Origin: Stropharia rugosoannulata
Taxonomy: Eukaryota > Basidiomycota > Agaricomycetes > Agaricales > Strophariaceae
Reading direction: 5' to 3'
DNA length: 64,000 nucleotides
Assembly (NCBI GenBank): GCA_028532985.1
Contig: JANCIK010000005.1
Coordinates: 3,044,501 to 3,108,500, forward strand
Of this stretch, positions 13,890-63,345 are shown piece after piece. The notes below the pieces were generated by a model that made no database searches, was not told where the DNA came from, and saw only the letters and a list, made by a program, of their open reading frames with translations. Both the position numbers and the translations under genes were made by a program. Numbering within the stretch: the first letter of the stretch is position 1; every line of letters begins with the position of its first letter.

Positions 13890-15829
13890 CTAAAGATATG
13901 CTGAAACATATGTTATGCCATACTCCCCCAATCTTTGTTTCTGCACAGGTCGACTAAGGCCCGATTGATTCAGCGTTAATACTTCTCCTGTATCAATCTT
14001 GCTTCCAGGACTTATAGAATCCAGGGCGATATGTCTAGACCAGTCAGCATGGGATTCCACAGCAGAGAGGTCTAGCAGGAAAATAGAACACAGCAAAGGA
14101 ACCTGAATTGTATCCCCTGGAAGCTCGGTGAAGTTCCAGATTGCGAATCCGAAGTGATCTTTCGACGGGTCAAAGGATGCAACCTCTGAGCTATCGATGT
14201 GACAAACCACAGGATCCGCGCGCCATCCTTGGATGTCAACGCAATGGAATCTTTGGTCACCAAAATCCGAGATATAGTCTGTGTCGCATGTCGCCATTAC
14301 AATCAATAGTGGTATCCTTAATCCAATGTGCGTAAGGCTGATTGGCCGACGTGGGAAGAGGTTATAGAGTGCCAAGTCCTGGTTGTAATTGGAGTAACAG
14401 TCTGGGCTCGAAGGCACTATATTCGAAACATGGATGTTTGAATCAATTGGGTCCCCTCCAAAGTTGAAAATGTCGTAACAGTTTGGAAAGGTAGTCAGAA
14501 TTGCTTCTATTAAACGCAGAAACGCTCGTTCCTGCCCTTCACCGTAAGCAATGGAGAAGCTGACCCCAAAGATACCCATGAGACAATATGAGCGGTCCTC
14601 TGCTTTTGTCGTGCGCCTTGTGGATGCCCATGCCATTTTGTGTGCCACGCCACGACCAATGCCAGGATGGAATGACTTGATAGAAGGTTCGTCAACCTTT
14701 GTCACTTTCTCTATTATCGAGAGTATCTCCACGGAGGCTTTATCATTCGTGTGGTTGGAAAGTGGAACCCAATCTCTGTTGTAGAACTTCATGCGCCGGG
14801 GGGCAAGTAGCTCTTGCAGAGTCCAGCCTCGAGTAAACCAGCGATCACGCTCCATGTCTTCCAGAGCGTCTGTGTCTGCGAGGTAAGAGAAACACACTTT
14901 TGCCCGCTCGTACCAGCGGTACATGGACCGAATGGATTCTTCAAGCTCGGAAGTACTGTCCTTGTTAATACATATAGTGTCCATCCAGGCGAACTCCATG
15001 CGCGCTTCTTCATGGGCCGTCTTGCAGAACCAGAAAAGCTTTCTGTATCCAGGATCTCCTTTAGATACAATGGCATTCCACCTCTTCTCTTTGACGCGGT
15101 CTTTGTAAGTCACTTCAGGATACTCTTCAAGCCAGGTGTGCGACAGGATGGCATAAACGGCATGTTCGCTCACGATCTTGTTGAGGAGATGACTACTCGC
15201 TTCTTCTATGTCCTCCTCGGTGATCTCTTCGTCGTTGAACAGAAGGGTAAATTTTGTCCAAGCATGTCTCCGTGTCAGGCCCTCCATGTTCTGGTACAGC
15301 ATGTCAATTTCGCGCTGCTTTCGCGCTTCCTCTTCTCTCCTGCTAAACGAGCGGCTCGGGGAGCTCGAGGTGTCGCGACTGGCGGATCCACCTAGCTTCA
15401 TCCAGTGGACAGTATCTGCAAGCATTTCGTTATAACGCTTCGGAGTGATATACGCTAGCTTGCGTAGTAGATGTTGCAGAACACTACCCCTCTCGACAAG
15501 CTCCATCTCGGGCAGCTTCAGCATACGAATCGGCATCTCGTTAAAGACGTGCTCCCGTAACACCTCGTTTACATCTGGGTGAACCTTGACGGGGGGAGGT
15601 TGCGCTCGGGAGACGCCCAACAATAATGGTGTCTTCGGTACTGGGTCAGAGACTGCACGGTTTACTGTTACTTGATTCAATGATAAGGTGGAAAACAAAA
15701 CCGATCTAAACACTTGCCGACTCGAGGAATGCGGCTCGACGGAGTTTCATCATGTTCCACAAGAAGTGTAGCATTGGACGCAGGTTCAATGACTTGAATA
15801 TCCTGTGGTGGATCCTCTAAAGGAGACAT
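13890..15829 (-). CDS. HET-domain (heterokaryon incompatibility) protein
   Basis: Putative non-self-recognition or cell-death effector of the fungal HET family. The large exon holds the HET blocks in order: YAILSHTWLEEYPEVTY, WMDTICINKDS, SMYRWYERAKVCFSYLAD, RWFTRGWTLQELLAPRRM and later DRSYCLMGIFGVSFSIAYGEG, all typical of basidiomycete HET proteins. The open frame at its 5' end has no ATG. A short first exon starting at 15829 (MSPLEDPPQDIQVIEP) joins in frame through a 48-nt intron if the weak donor GTTTAG is used. The product is about 640 residues with a C-terminal region of unknown function. No NACHT or WD40 partner domain is visible, so signalling partners are not evident from this locus. 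Confidence 0.85.
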
Positions 15830-29924: not shown

Positions 29925-31657
29925 TCAGCCTTCTTTTACAACTTCCCTGACACTCTCCGCGAAGATTGCGCAACCCTGCTTCATCTCCTCCTTGCTGACG
30001 TTCAGCGGAGGTATAAACCGAATCACCTCATAAACACTGGTCGTAAGTATCAACATGCCTTTATCAATGCATTTGCGTGCCACACGCGCCGCCATGTTTT
30101 CTGGATGGCTCGCATCGCTACCCTTAGCAGACGGGCGGTGGGAAAGGGCCGGAGGAAGAGATGCGGCGGAATGTGTTGAAAAATGATGCTCGGATGTCTT
30201 AGGCGTTGCAAATTCAACGCCGACCATGAGACCCCGCCCACGGACGTCCACGATGTGCGGGTTCAGAGCGGGATCGTACTTCAACCCATTGAGGGCAGAG
30301 AAAAGTTCATTAGACCTGGAAGAAATAGAGATCGTGATCAGCTATAAAAAATAAAGTCACAGTGGACCAGAGACAAACCTTACGCGAACATTGTCAAGAA
30401 TATTTTCCTCCTGCATAACCTTGTTCACCGCAACTGCTGCAGCACAGGCAACAGCATTACCAGCATACGTTCCGCCCTATGCAAGCGAATCGGTTAGATC
30501 TATTTATAGAACAATCTGAAGGTGGCTTACCATAGACCCGGGGGTCAGTGTATCTGTGAGCTCACGTCGGCTGACGATACCGCTAATCGGAAACCCGTTA
30601 CCCAGCCCCTGATGCGCCACCTAAGCTCTATTGTCTGCAGCATGACAAGACAATACCCACCTTTGCCATGACCATAATATCCGGCCGGACCCCACTCTCG
30701 CTGACTGCGAAGTAGGATCCCGTGCGGCCGAAGCCACTCTGAACCTCGTCAACAATGAGCAGAATGTCATGCTCATCACAGATTTTGCGCAGGCCTTGGA
30801 GGAATTCAGGGGGCGCAGGGACATATCCACCCTCGCCCAGAACCGGCTCAACGATGATGGCCGCAGTGTCTTTTGGTGACGTTTGTTGAGAGAGTAGAAG
30901 CTCCAGCTGGTAGAGGGAGTGTGCAGTTAGGACGCTCGTTGGGGTGTCAAGTGGGAAGTTGGATTGATGCCAGTACGGATAGGGAATCGAGAAAACACCT
31001 GGCTACTCCACACTGTAAGCCGGAAGTTCCCAGAAACGATTATACACACCATGAGTGGATGGACACCCGCCGAGTAAATCGTCTTGCTTTTTGTCACCGC
31101 CATTGCGCCAAACGTCCGTCCGTGGTATGCGCCTGCCCATAGTCGAGCTTAGTACACGAAAACATTGACCTTGAAAGACAAACCTTGCATGCAAATTATG
31201 TTCTGCTTCTTCGTGAACCACCTCGCCATTTTGATAGCTCCCTCTACTGCTTCAGAGCCAGAGTTCCAGAAGAAGAACGAGTCGAGCGACGGGTCTGGCA
31301 TGACAGGCAGCAGGCGCTCAATGAGTCTGAGGTAGGGCTCGTGTAGTGCTATACTGCACTGGGAGTGTACCAGTTGCATGCATTGATCAGCGGCGGCTTT
31401 GCTCACAATGGGATGGGCATGTCCTGTATCCACAGTTAGTTCGATATTCAAGACGGCAAATCTGTATCTGAATGAATACCGAGGTTGGTCACACCAATGC
31501 CACAAGTAAAGTCCAGGAGCTTGCGGCCGTCGTCGTACGTGACGTATGTTCCCTCGCCTTTCATCATGATCCCCTGCGTGATTCGACCAACGCCCTTGTT
31601 GACATGCTTCACCCCGAAGTCGTGCAGATCCTCAGGAGGGTTGGAGTTGGTGCTCAA
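29925..31657 (-). CDS. Class III PLP aminotransferase (4-aminobutyrate aminotransferase-like)
   Basis: Transfers an omega-amino group (GABA or a similar omega-amino acid) to 2-oxoglutarate. Start ATG at 31657 ([19 protein letters not shown]). Motifs in order: [15 protein letters not shown] across an intron, [20 protein letters not shown] (PLP-phosphate region), [46 protein letters not shown] (PLP-ring Asp) and [13 protein letters not shown], which contains the Schiff-base Lys. That last motif forms only if the intron ends at CATCAG, which fixes the acceptor. [17 protein letters not shown] and [12 protein letters not shown] follow. At least five introns. A Ser/His/Pro-rich insert ([17 protein letters not shown]) in the small domain is unusual. 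The substrate could be GABA or another omega-amino compound; no neighbour helps decide. Confidence 0.9.
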
Positions 31658-32642: not shown

Positions 32643-34020
32643 TTAGAGATTCAAATTACGGAAATCATAGGCACGGCGCTGATAAGAGTGTTGCTCCTCT
32701 TCCTGATGGGGCTGTTCGTGGTGCTCCTGTGTTTCATGGTGCGGGTGTTCTGCGGCTTTGGCTTTGTGCGAATTAAGCATACTTATAAAAGAGAGTAAGT
32801 AACCATGTCCAAAATTATCGTTAAAGATAAATTGAAGCACTTACCCAGCACCGATAGCACCTGCAGCACCGGCACCAAAGAAAGCCAAAAGCTTGGATAT
32901 GGGCTCTCTCGCCTCCCTGAACATATTCATTAACATAGACCATGACGAAACTTAACTGCTCGACCTACAAATCGGTAATGTCTTCATCGAAAGAACGGCG
33001 AGCGGGCTGTTCTGCGTCTGTGGCGTGGTGCGAGTTATACACACTGAGGAAAGTAAGCTACCATGTTCAAATTCAAGAATAAATTGAACTACTTACCCAG
33101 CACCGATAGCACCTGCAGTACCGGCACCAAGGAAAGCCAACACTTTGGACATGGGCTCTCTCGCCTCCCTAAACAGTCATTAGTATTTATCATAACAAAA
33201 CTTGGCCGCTCGACCTACAAATCGGTAATGTCTTCATCGAAAGAACGGCGAGTGGGTTGTTCTGCGTCTTTGGCTTTGTGCGAATTATAGACACTTGGAA
33301 TGATAGTAAGCACAATGATGTGCAAATGAAAGGATAAACGCCTACCCAGCGCCAATAGCACCTGCAGTACCGGCACCAAGGAAAGCCAAGATTTTGGACA
33401 TGGGCTCTCTTGCCTCCCTAAACATATTCATCAATACTAATTAGAATGAAGTTTAACTACTCGACCTACAAATCGGTAATGTCTTCATCGAAAGAACGGC
33501 GAGTGGGTTGTTCTGCGTCTTTGGCTTTGTGCGAATTATAGACACTTGTAATGATAGTAAGCACAATGATGTACAAGTGAAAGGACAAATCAAAACGCTT
33601 ACCCAGCGCCAATAGCACCCACAGTACCGGCACCAAGGAAAGCCAAGATCTTGGACATGGGCTCTCTTGCCTCCCTAAACGTATCTATTAGTAATGCTTA
33701 TAATGAAGCTTAACTACTTGACCTACAAATCGGTAATGTCTTCATCGAATGAACGGCTGGCGAAAGTGGCCTCTGGACCGTTCAATGGCTCTCGAGCCTC
33801 TCTTTATTATACCCGTCAGTACTTATAAGAACGTATAGCAGCTGCACCACTCACAAATCGTTACTATCTTCCCTCGCCTCACTTGAAATTTTGTTAGCAG
33901 ACAGAAATCATGCTACATTCCGCCCTAGACTCACAAGCGACTCGGAGTAGGAAGTGCGAAACCAGTGTTCGCGAGGGTCGTGGCAGCCAAAACGAAAGAA
34001 AAGAGAGTAGCAGGCAACAT
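32643..34020 (-). CDS. Secreted tandem-repeat peptide precursor with Kex2-type sites
   Basis: Eleven exons: 33935-34020, 33855-33881, 33727-33801, 33603-33674, 33470-33544, 33346-33417, 33219-33293, 33097-33168, 32969-33043, 32845-32916 and 32643-32781. They total 840 nt and encode 279 residues. All ten introns are phase 2. Exon 1 encodes a signal peptide (MLPATLFSFVLAATTLANTG, cleavage probably after GFA). Two short units follow (EAREDSND; EAREPLNG to SFDEDITD). Then come four near-identical units starting LEAREPMSKILAFLGAG, each with a Gly/Ala hydrophobic stretch (AFLGAGTAGAIGAG) and VYNSHKAKDAEQP. Arg-Arg pairs at residues 102-103, 151-152, 200-201 and 269-270 are Kex2-like sites that would free 47-residue peptides (SFDEDITD to AEQPT). 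The last unit ends in a His/Glu-rich tail. The family and activity are unknown. No methyltransferase, DUF3328 or other RiPP enzyme is nearby. Confidence 0.82.
32845..33801 (-). repeat. Tandem duplication of an exon-intron-exon-intron module
   Basis: A module of about 250 bp (spacings 250, 251 and 257 bp between successive copies of the SFDEDITD-coding segment) is repeated. Each contains a 72-nt exon, an intron of about 50-65 nt, a 75-nt exon and an intron of about 50 nt. Introns are conserved as well as exons, which points to recent unequal exchange. Confidence 0.9.
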
Positions 34021-35851
34021 ATTTGATTATGGGATAAGTGTTTGGATGATTTTTTGGGCGGGTTGTTTGTTCTTCGGCGTTCAACGCTACTGTAAGAATG
34101 GGAGGATGAGACCAGCTAAAGAGAATGGATACACATCGTCCGTGTTTTATATGTGGGCACATGTCGGCAGGACATCGCGGACACAGATCTACCCACGCAC
34201 TAGAGCCTACCCCTTAAAGTTGTAGATGAAACCCGAGCTGCTGAGCGTCAGATCATTATCAGTTAACAACGTACAAACAACGTAAGTATTTTGATCAAGA
34301 ATAGGTACTACTAAAGTATGTAGTACTTATAACCTGCTACTGGGGAGCAGCATGTAGCGCAAATGTAGACAGTTCTTAGTACGTACATACATAGCATTTA
34401 GTAGGCGCAGATATGGATGCACCGGTGCAGAGTGCGATTGAGCGCCTGTCGCAGAATGTATTAATCGGGCATCGCCGCCGAGCGAACTAATAAATTCCCA
34501 AGCCCCCCAAAGCAGTGAATTGTTACCGAGGTTATAACAAATGTTTTACTAAGCCTAGCTGCATATTAATGGTAATTCCGATTCCTCAATACCGCATACG
34601 TCTTGACAAGGATTGACACTGAATGTGACCTGTCACTGATTGTTTCGTATGTCAAGTATGTAGAAGACACACAGGGTGAAACGTAGGACATGCATAGAAG
34701 AAATTATGCGACACAGATACATAACAACCGGCTCAGTCGAGTATCGGTGAGTATTCTTTCTATGTATGTAGTAAAGTCAGAATACTGCTTACGTCCCCTC
34801 TCTACTGATAGTCATATTGCAAACAGGCCTGTTTGAACTACTTGCTTCGGCGCAGCTGACATGCAAACGTTTTGAACGCAATGCTGCTTACATGTTACAT
34901 GATTTAAATTGTACAAACATACATATTGTTTGCTAATTTTTATTTTTGGCCTGTTGAGAGTTTCCTGAGTTCTGCGTCCCTTATCGTCATTTGAGAAACT
35001 CCGAGCCATCATTTCAGTCCAATTTTGATGCCGGGAGATCTTCAGACTCGCCGCCTCTCACCGCCTCAGCCTTCGCGCATCAGCGTAGATCAGCGTTGAA
35101 TCAGAGTGCCAATCACGCGATGATTTTCCTTCATATCCATCTCTAAGCTCTTGAAATTACTTACATACATATGTAGCATGTAGGCGCTTGAACTACGGAA
35201 ACGTTACAAGCGCTGCTGCCTTGGTTTGAAATAACAGTCAGCGACTAGACTTGACCGTACTACACAATAAACATTGACTAGCTTCAACGCAACTCAAATT
35301 TATATTTCCGTGCCATACCGTTCCTACGCTGGACTTTCGCAATGGCAAGTTGGTTGCAAGGCAGAATTTCGAGAAATCTAGCCAGATTACTACATATATG
35401 AGATATACTATATACCCTAATATACCTGATATCAGTGATAACAGTAATATGTAGGCTCAAATCAAGTGATGGATCGGCGTCGGCAGGCGACCAAGTACGT
35501 AGTCAAGAGGTATGAATAAAATCGTGATCAGTGATTGATCAGGATTTATACATGTATGCACCTAATGATAAATTATAACCTATTATAACTGTTGTCAGTA
35601 CTTCTGCATTCTACTCTATATATAAGCTGCCACCCACCAGGGGTTACCGGTTATAATTAGAATGTGCATAACTTACTACCACGCTCTTCAATCTCGTGAA
35701 TGTAATCGCATTGATCATGTGTCGTTTCACATGCATGCATTATTGTGCGTCCAAATCCCAGTAGCCTAGGGCCTTTCCAAGCCTTTCCACTGAATAGTTA
35801 ACTACTGGTTTCGCCATTTCTCTGCCTTCGACGATTATTGCCTCTCAATCT
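34021..35851. other. 1.8-kb intergenic region
   Basis: The first part is the promoter and 5' UTR of the repeat-peptide gene (ACTTATCCCATAATC-type leader just before the ATG). The rest is AT-rich with short TATA-like runs near 35390-35420 and 35610. No gene supported. Confidence 0.4.
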
Positions 35852-36527
35852 ATGTTTGAAACCCCGCGCCTTCGCCTGCGTAGATATCAGTCTTCCGATG
35901 AGGAGTTTTTCGTCAATCTATTCAATGACTACGACATTTTACTGAATACAACAACGACCTACGTTACACCACTAACACGGGAAAGCGTCGTAAAGATTAT
36001 CAGCCAATTGTGCAAAACAACACTGTTTGTAGTCGCTGAATCGAAAGAAACGGGCGTCCCAATAGGATTTTGCCACGTGGCGATACTGGTACCGCTGAAC
36101 CAGGATGGAGAATTAGGAATAGCGGTTGGAAAGGAATGGCAGGGGACGGGGTTTGGGACAGAAATCATAACGTGGACTATATCCTATTCATTCAAGTCCC
36201 TTGGACTTCGCAGGCTATCTCTGTCGGTTTTTGCCTCAAACCTTGGTGCTGTTGCCCTTTATGAACATGTGTATGTGTGTCTATGTTTTTACAATTTTAA
36301 GATAATAATGATTTATATGACACAGTGGATTCAAACATGAAGGTCGGAAGCGTGAAGCAATGTGGAAGGAAGGAAAATGGGTCGACTTCCTATACATGGG
36401 TCTGCTTGCAAAAGAGTATTATGCTACTGCAGACTCTTCCTCTGGTACCGTTCTGCCCGTGCCGCTTATTACTACACCGTTAGATACACAAGAGTCGGAA
36501 ATATCCGAATGGATTGTCCTGTCTTAG
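35852..36527 (+). CDS. GNAT-family N-acetyltransferase (RimJ/RimL type)
   Basis: Transfers an acetyl group from acetyl-CoA to an amine; the substrate is unknown. Two exons (35852-36270, 36326-36527) join across a phase 2 intron with a GTATGT donor, giving about 206 residues. The start MFETPRLRLRRYQSSDEEFF is the standard opening of Acetyltransf_3 proteins. ELGIAVGKEWQGTGFGTEII is the acetyl-CoA-binding motif A, with QGTGFGTE fitting Q/R-x-x-G-x-G/A. LGLRRLSLSVFASNLGAVALYEHV runs over the intron into GFKHEGRKREAMWKEGKWVD, the typical 'N-x-x-A-x-x-x-Y-E-k-x-G-F' end of the domain. The C-terminal about 35 residues are an extra tail. Confidence 0.9.
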
Positions 36528-62348: not shown

Positions 62349-63299
62349 TTAGAAGTCGTCGTCGAACTCCGCGTCGTCGAAGTTATTGTCCTCTTCGGGC
62401 TCAGGGAACTCGTCGGCTTCGTGTTCATCGTCTGCAGCAGCGTCCCCATCTTGGTAAAACTCGTCCGCCACAGGTTCTACAGTATCCTGCATTCCAACAT
62501 GATCCATAGGGGAAATCTCAGCCTCCTTGTCGGTGACGGCGACCTGTTGATACTCCGGGGCGGCAAGATCGCTGACCTCAGCAACTCGCCTGCATCCGCA
62601 CCGGCGACGGCAACAGCATCTCCTGCGACGGCAACAACACCTGCGACGGCAACAGCACCTGCGACGGCAGCAACGTCTGCGACGGCGGCAACACCTGCGA
62701 CGGCAACAACGGCGACGGCAGCAACGGCGACGGCAGCAACGGCGACGGCATGGGCATGGGCATGGGCGGCATGGGCACGGGCACGGGCACGGGCATGGGC
62801 ATGGGCACGGGCATGGGCGGCATGGACATGGGCAGGGGCGGCATGGGCAGGGGCAGGGCAAACAAGGGCAAGGGCGTATGCATGGCCTGAAGCAAGGTCG
62901 GCAGCAAGGCCTGAAGCACGGGCGACAGCAAGGCCTGCAGCACGGACGACAGCATCTGCAACAGCCACAGCAGCGACGGAAGAGGCTTTCTACAGGAAGG
63001 CTGTCTTGTCCTTCGATTACATCCGGTGTATACTCCTGTGCGTTGGCTTCGAGGGGAGAGAATGAGGGCCACTCCGCCTCGGAGGCAACTTCAAGGCCGT
63101 GAGCTTGGTTCTGGCTTTCCCCGGAAACTGGTATTGTGTAGTCATTGGCTACGGTGGCGAGGTCCCCAAGGACATCGTAGGCCTCGACAGTCGTTTGTCC
63201 AGCCGGCGCTGCAGAGACAGCGAGCAACCCAGAGGCGATGATGAGTAGGGCACCGATTTTGCCCTTCATGGAGGAGAACATTGTTGGATAGACCTTCAC
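62349..63299 (-). CDS. Secreted Cys/Arg/Pro-repeat protein
   Basis: A single exon of 316 residues. After the first ATGs a hydrophobic leader (GALLIIASGLLAVSAAPAG) predicts a signal peptide cut near AVSAAP. An acidic spacer of about 70 residues follows, ending SLPVESLFRR. The core (about residues 108-238) is almost only C, R and P in three zones: RPCCRPCCRPCFRPC repeats, PCPCPC runs, and RRRCC repeats with one GC. The tail (about 75 residues) is strongly acidic (DDEHEADEF, EPEEDNNFDDAEFDDDF). No known family fits. CxC and CC density recalls metallothioneins, but those are not secreted or Arg-rich. Arg pairs at FRR and CRR could be Kex2 sites that release the core. It could be a metal-binding, wall-crosslinking or cationic defence protein; none is proven. 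Confidence 0.8.
   Translation of the reverse strand: MKVYPTMFSSMKGKIGALLIIASGLLAVSAAPAGQTTVEAYDVLGDLATVANDYTIPVSGESQNQAHGLEVASEAEWPSFSPLEANAQEYTPDVIEGQDSLPVESLFRRCCGCCRCCRPCCRPCCRPCFRPCCRPCFRPCIRPCPCLPCPCPCRPCPCPCRPCPCPCPCPCPCPCPCRPCPCPCRRRCCRRRCCRRRCCRRRCCRRRRRCCRRRCCCRRRCCCRRRRCCCRRRCGCRRVAEVSDLAAPEYQQVAVTDKEAEISPMDHVGMQDTVEPVADEFYQDGDAAADDEHEADEFPEPEEDNNFDDAEFDDDF
62585..62975 (-). repeat. Coding minisatellite of the Cys/Arg/Pro core
   Basis: Short repeats such as GGGCATGGGCACG and GCGACGGCAGCAAC (plus strand) build the RPC, PCPC and RRRCC motifs. Three repeat types follow each other with sharp borders. The other strands and frames translate to Ala/Thr- or Met/Pro-rich shadows and are not genes. 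Confidence 0.9.
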
Positions 63300-63345
63300 T
63301 TTCTGGATGCGAGAGGCGTCCGAGTACGAATACTAACGATTAGCA

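Follow-up and report, generated by a model that had tools for sequence, protein, structure and literature searches.

A predicted Stropharia rugosoannulata gene hidden in phase-2 micro-exons may encode a multi-peptide precursor with acidic spacers and a second kind of candidate cut site

In a stretch of 64,000 nucleotides of the mushroom Stropharia rugosoannulata (positions 3,044,501 to 3,108,500 of contig JANCIK010000005.1, here called the window) we found a predicted minus-strand gene that may encode a kexin-processed multi-peptide precursor, a KEP in the broad sense, in which cuts at Arg-Arg and at LEAR would release acidic spacers and likely membrane-active helical peptides; we regard this reading as evenly poised between right and wrong. 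KEPs are common in fungi and their functions are mostly unknown (PMC9769878). The KEP itself is a known kind of protein, and the family to which the window gene apparently belongs would be a variant of it with acidic spacers, LxxR sites and phase-2 micro-exons. A second candidate cut site that is not dibasic, present in at least five genes, would broaden the rule by which KEPs are searched for.

The coding sequence runs on the minus strand from 34020 to 32643 (window coordinates, as for all features of this gene) and in the splice-site model comprises 11 exons and ten GT-AG introns of 50-63 nt, all ten in phase 2, encoding 279 residues followed by TAA. A previous sequence-only reading had proposed a gene of 11 exons and 279 residues, and joining the exons reproduced it; splicing is inferred from the splice sites, the frame and the comparison of copies. 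The likely signal peptide (residues 1-22, 33955..34020), a hydrophobic N-terminus ending in GFA that was recognized by eye and nearly matches the start of a related gene on contig C3, lies in exon 1 (33935-34020). It is followed by an acidic propeptide with two early EAR sites (residues 23-54, 33753..33954), which extends over exons 1-3 (exon 2, 33855-33881; exon 3, 33727..33801). The predicted intron 1 (33882..33934) has a GTGAGT donor, a CTAAC branch-like site and a final AG; the predicted intron 2 lies at 33802..33854. Exons 4 (33603..33674, EAREP...GAIGA), 6 (33346..33417), 8 (33097..33168) and 10 (32845..32916) are the core exons of units 1 to 4, and exons 5 (33470..33544), 7 (33219..33293) and 9 (32969..33043) each carry the end of one core, Arg-Arg and the acidic spacer of the next unit. 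Exon 11 (32643..32781) holds the end of unit 4, an acidic His-rich tail, a fourth Arg-Arg and the stop. These exons are separated by the predicted introns 3 (33675..33726), 4 (33545..33602), 5 (33418..33469), 6 (33294..33345), 7 (33169..33218), 8 (33044..33096), 9 (32917..32968) and 10 (32782..32844). The donor of intron 3 contains an in-frame TAG; indeed, all four units read SFDEDITDL and then TAG within the donor GTAGGT, just as had been claimed for the unspliced units.

The repeat array has a tandem-repeat score of 1198, and its exons are more alike between copies than its introns: exon A is 91-100% identical (three copies compared) and exon B 86-96% (four copies), whereas the introns reach 67-79% in one class and 41-81% in the other. 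The exon differences, counted pairwise and hence not independent, fall at codon positions 1, 2 and 3 in 15, 5 and 35 cases, and this predominance of third positions is a mark of translated sequence; the same kind of non-independent pairwise count gave 22 synonymous and 23 nonsynonymous codon differences. As far as sequence can tell, the repeat array and the predicted gene model are confirmed as real, beyond chance. A Pfam search with the whole window protein listed 16 families with E values of 1 or less, none of which passed its curated cut-off; the rows for the Latarcin precursor (E 0.064) and bacteriocin IId (E 0.67) are among these sub-threshold ones and were not taken as evidence. The PDB sequence search with this protein gave 0 matches.

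The units start at residues 55, 104, 153 and 202, a spacing of 49 residues, and each consists of SFDEDITDLEAR, a core such as EPMSKILAFLGAGTAGAIGAGVYNSHKAKDAEQPT, and Arg-Arg; in unit 4 the core continues into the long tail, which leads to Arg-Arg 269-270 and the end AYDFRNLNL. The sequence-only reading had counted three Arg-Arg and expected 47-residue peptides starting with SFDEDITD. A fourth Arg-Arg is present, the sites being residues 102-103 (33496..33501), 151-152 (33245..33250), 200-201 (32995..33000) and 269-270 (32673..32678). Two stretches of 47 residues (104-150 and 153-199) are in fact flanked by Arg-Arg, but unit 1 is preceded by a single Arg (FASR). Moreover, since LEAR stands before the core in every unit and fits the extended LxxR motif of kexin, we predict 35-residue cores rather than the 47-residue peptides: each unit would yield an acidic spacer of 12 residues and a hydrophobic core rich in Gly/Ala, which has 35 residues in units 1-3. 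With these putative cut sites, the spliced products would be core 1 (residues 67-101, 33502..33664), core 2 (residues 116-150, 33251..33407), core 3 (residues 165-199, 33001..33158) and core 4 together with the acidic His-rich tail (residues 214-268, 32679..32906). The broader proposal of a spliced, secreted, Kex2-cut repeat precursor finds good support in the sequence, with the changes that Arg-Arg is probably not the sole cut and that the gene is not an orphan.

The search covered the genome of 48 Mb in 20 contigs, of which C5 carries the window. The spliced window protein gave four weak matches outside its own gene, with E values from 0.02 to 0.18 (one on C3, two on C6, one on C5). The unit had been said to resemble no familiar fungal peptide, an orphan status that it loses with at least four more predicted genes of the same plan, reached from these matches and by further queries: C6a (C6 3536124-3537592, plus strand, 375 aa), C6b (C6 3523073-3521421, minus strand, 417 aa, one unit more than C6a), C12 (C12 719318-721262, plus strand, 445 aa) and C3 (C3 952495-951801, minus strand, 149 aa). 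Five precursors are a lower bound, because the genome searches score the best candidates only. These apparent paralogs share a likely signal peptide, units of the form [acidic spacer]-xxR-[core], and introns that lie within most cores or directly behind them; a single exon holds the last four C6 cores. Phase 2 holds for 36 of the 37 introns in the five models; only an uncertain early intron of C12 deviates. The start of C3 agrees with that of the window gene at 74% over the matched part. The window gene matches C6 only weakly (best E 0.097), and C12 was without a match to the window gene query and was reached only through C6, so that kinship with these rests on the shared plan and the intron phase. 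C3, C12, C6a, C6b and the window gene apparently form a family that has expanded as phase-2 exon units were duplicated.

Codon-level searches of the genome point to the same genes. All seven matches of a codon pattern for [LF]-E-A-R-E-P lie in C6a, C6b and C12 (three matches with the backward control), and a version with the acceptor AG found four of its five matches in the window gene (backward control, one); the fifth, on C11, was dropped, as there were no related frames around it. A query made of the tails and one core matched only the C3, C6 and C12 genes. Two further matches were dropped, C5:2790748 (E 0.086), a long frame of unrelated look, and C11:1555521 (E 1.65). At the C-termini of C6a, C6b and C12 and inside C3 we observed an acidic YIRD/FIRD motif followed by an acidic Tyr-rich end, of which none was seen in the window gene.

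The two C6 genes share 1125 coding positions (375 codons), of which 26 differ; all 26 differences are third-position and synonymous, with no nonsynonymous difference. Their introns show 22 mismatches over 338 aligned positions, and nine gap columns. This comparison argues strongly for constraint on the two spliced C6 proteins, and it gives indirect support to the window gene model. At least part of the gene set is thus under strong selection. Both C6 precursors lie in an inverted duplication (C6:3518762-3540320), each flanked by a HET-domain frame; a flanking 2-kb stretch is 77% identical between the copies, and the precursors differ only synonymously in the shared codons.

Kex2 has Arg at P1, accepts more than one residue at P2 and favours Leu or another aliphatic residue at P4, and LxxR is described as an extended motif (PMC8528282); the P2 residues named there do not include Ala, and the Asp that LDAR has at P3 is given as unfavourable. 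In the five genes [LIVFM]xxR precedes all 36 delimited cores and strict LxxR 30 of them, a count that is partly circular, as the cores were delimited at [LIVFM]xxR, and in which two short pieces from the propeptide of the window gene are included. Because of this delimitation, the number of sites per precursor compared with shuffles is the fairer test. Each of the five precursors has more [LIVFM]xxR sites than its shuffles have on average, and the observed count was reached in 3 (C6a), 6 (C6b), 0 (C12), 7 (C3) and 54 (window gene) of 2000 shuffles; the excess is therefore modest in the window gene and clear in the other four. Five cores of C12, which begin with Gln, have no Arg-Arg between them and are bounded by LEAR (once LVAR) and by MVTR or LVTR, so that Arg-Arg cannot be the sole cut in this precursor. 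Glu-Pro, an XP dipeptide of the STE13 kind, follows the cut site at the start of 26 of the 36 cores. Predicted enzymes for both steps are encoded in the genome, with three matches to the proprotein-convertase P-domain (P_proprotein) and one dipeptidyl peptidase IV-type locus (DPPIV_N, in two matches). For KEP peptides of Agaricomycetes, apparent single-Arg cut products, removal of XA/XP and pyroglutamate ends have been reported, and several of the mushroom peptides that start with Gln occur as pyroglutamate (PMC9769878).

Measured against the definition of KEPs, the window protein has at least three repeats of at least eight residues between dibasic sites and none over 100, with fragments bounded by Arg-Arg at 102, 151, 200 and 269 and two units cleanly flanked on both sides; the hydrophobic 22-residue N-terminus, judged by eye, would serve as the signal peptide, and the predicted convertases and peptidase as processing enzymes. 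The exclusion of membrane proteins by TMHMM is a filter of one survey only (PMC6339444). With Agaricomycete KEPs as described in three surveys (PMC9769878, PMC6339444, PMC7329392) the window family has in common a likely signal peptide, near-identical repeats, Arg-Arg and XP after the cut; cores starting with Gln occur likewise in C12, and single-Arg-cut products are reported in KEPs. In contrast to the named KEP peptides of about 6-20 residues (PMC9769878), most cores found here have about 20-43 residues and are hydrophobic or cationic. Unlike what these sources describe for KEPs, the acidic spacers of the family moreover end in [LIVFM]xxR, most cores contain a phase-2 intron or are followed by one, and some cores have no Arg-Arg between them. 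The three surveys used annotated or predicted proteomes, and one of them discarded TMHMM positives; since they were built on such proteins, micro-exon precursors could be missed. The window cores reach hydropathy peaks of 1.31-1.51 over 19 residues, and a TMHMM filter might discard them. A literature search by titles and abstract starts found no fungal precursor family of such a plan, though it did bring up the spider precursors; the supplementary tables of the surveys may hold relatives.

The charges of spacers and cores were parsed for 28 spacers and for 31 of the 36 counted cores. The spacers are negative in 26 of 28 cases (mean -3.46), the two non-negative rows being parsing artefacts in C12, and the 31 cores average +1.0, with 21 positive ones that all belong to the other genes; the cores of the window gene have net charges of 0, 0, -2 and -5, the last including the tail. 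Many C6 and C12 cores are cationic and some are amphipathic; the window cores are hydrophobic and rich in Gly/Ala. Helical amphipathicity reached a shuffle p below 0.03 in seven of the 15 cores tested (C6u3, C6t1-t4, C12v and C3b), with p values of 0.037 for C6u1, 0.069 for C6u4 and 0.117 for C12u1, and for the two window cores tested the helical moment was not above that of shuffles (p 0.73 and 0.32). The expectation that all cores would be amphipathic helices was therefore given up, five of the 15, both window cores included, lying at p 0.32 or above. A single-sequence structure model of a 31-residue reading that contains the residues of exon 10, and whose first residues come from the intron, predicted a helix at residues 3-29 with a mean pLDDT of 82.4.

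Taken in sequence, the processing would start with the removal of the ten introns of 50-63 nt, after which the precursor, to judge from its N-terminus, may enter the secretory pathway. Kexin would then cut after Arg-Arg and after the LxxR-type LEAR, and the leading Glu-Pro may be removed by a dipeptidyl aminopeptidase, the role ascribed to STE13 in other mushroom peptides. The acidic spacer, with a net charge of -5 in the window gene, might keep the hydrophobic core soluble and harmless until it is cut. In the last and weakest step, the Gly/Ala-rich cores might enter membranes or assemble on them, those of competitors or grazers being the likeliest targets. Such a membrane-active role is our first choice for the whole precursor set, with a repellent-type coat as the main rival for the window gene. 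In C. cinerea six KEP knockouts were reported to have no phenotype, and synthetic KEP peptides no antibacterial activity (PMC9769878); these peptides have other sequences than the window cores.

Precursors of spider cytolytic peptides (cupiennins, latarcins) are described as having a signal peptide, an anionic propeptide, membrane peptides and short anionic linkers bounded by Arg (PMC7889660). Their strict processing quadruplet motif, with Arg at -1 and Glu at -2 to -4, is found at 26 of the 36 sites in the five genes and at all six in the window gene. The comparison has its differences: the strict motif is absent at ten of the 36 cores, those of the window gene lack a cationic character, and another kingdom and another protease are involved. 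We take the resemblance as a likeness of plan, with no claim of sequence kinship. Ece1 of Candida albicans, the source of candidalysin, is a single secreted precursor from which kexin cuts release a membrane-active peptide; by description its general plan is like that predicted for the window precursor. Going further, one might tentatively see in the family a venom-like library, in which a phase-2 unit of acidic spacer, LxxR and helical core was duplicated and diversified into a membrane-active cocktail, reached independently of spiders and hidden by introns, although we consider this extension more doubtful than the precursor reading itself. Such units would have stayed hidden because small introns break them, as do, in the window gene, the stops at the donor sites.

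Several other explanations have to be weighed against a membrane-active role. The strongest, which we nevertheless judge improbable, is that kexin cuts at Arg-Arg only and that the 47-residue peptides, with an acidic head and a hydrophobic Gly/Ala body, coat the hyphal wall and make it water-repellent. Its model is Rep1 of Ustilago maydis, in which Kex2-separated repeats yield ten peptides of 35-53 residues (PMC4617103), so that both size and plan agree and peptides of 35 or 47 residues from the window gene would fit that length; near-identical units would also suit a polymer. Since the window cores are hydrophobic and, taken as helices, show no clear amphipathicity, a repellent-like coat stays conceivable for this gene. 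By description, the repeats of Rep1 are amphipathic (PMC4617103), and the window cores are set apart from them by their Gly/Ala-rich, hydrophobic character, the acidic spacer and the second site. The retention of LEAR in every unit, the five C12 cores with no Arg-Arg between them, and the wide differences of the C6 and C12 cores among themselves, unlike a uniform coat, argue against a repellent role.

Secreted signalling peptides, pheromone-like or hormone-like and released by Kex2 and STE13, are a less likely explanation. They would account for the Glu-Pro after the cut, and alpha-type pheromones are among the KEPs (PMC6339444, PMC7329392), but the known ones are reported to have 9-24 residues (PMC6339444), whereas most of the cores are long (about 20-43 residues), hydrophobic and diverse between genes. 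To the same low degree we expect an intact secreted cell-wall repeat protein with Arg-Arg and LEAR uncut: cleavage of the window precursor is predicted and no observation contradicts the uncut form, yet several genes show a regular order in which an acidic spacer, a basic site and a hydrophobic core take turns, and without cleavage this would be hard to account for.

Dikaritin-type RiPPs, with cores oxidatively cyclised by UstYa (DUF3328), come from precursors of the ustiloxin type that are secreted, repeated and kexin-cut like the window precursor. Ustiloxin-type cores are far shorter than those of the window family. At least 22 UstYa matches are listed genome-wide, 20 of them over the cut-off, and the C3 gene has one pair at a distance of about 13 kb, but none of the 22 listed is on C5 or C6; their positions disfavour this explanation, which appears very improbable. 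A chance or decayed repeat array with no working gene, for which it can be said that the window gene model is predicted from sequence, is scarcely credible in view of the closer likeness of exon than of intron copies, a frame that stays open across all ten splice junctions, and the C6 pair, in which all 26 coding differences are synonymous.

As to the surroundings of the precursors, no family adjoining all loci was seen among the 20 ORFs scanned. The precursor of the window lies between exons of a class-III aminotransferase (29928-31631, minus strand) and a GNAT acetyltransferase (35798-36337, plus strand), the nearest Pfam matches among the ten window frames scanned. The UstYa pair on C3 (C3:938193-938556) is the one about 13 kb from the precursor there (951801-952495), and the nearest listed UstYa match on C12 is about 49 kb from the C12 precursor. 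A HET-domain open frame is found in the window at 13893-15746 (minus strand), about 17 kb from the precursor; HET genes were considered as precursor partners and set aside; on C6 they look like part of the one inverted duplication. The window has a second odd secreted-type repeat protein in an open frame at 62352-63332 (minus strand): behind a likely signal peptide, acidic flanks enclose a long array rich in Cys, Arg and Pro, in which runs of CCRRR and PCPC are frequent.
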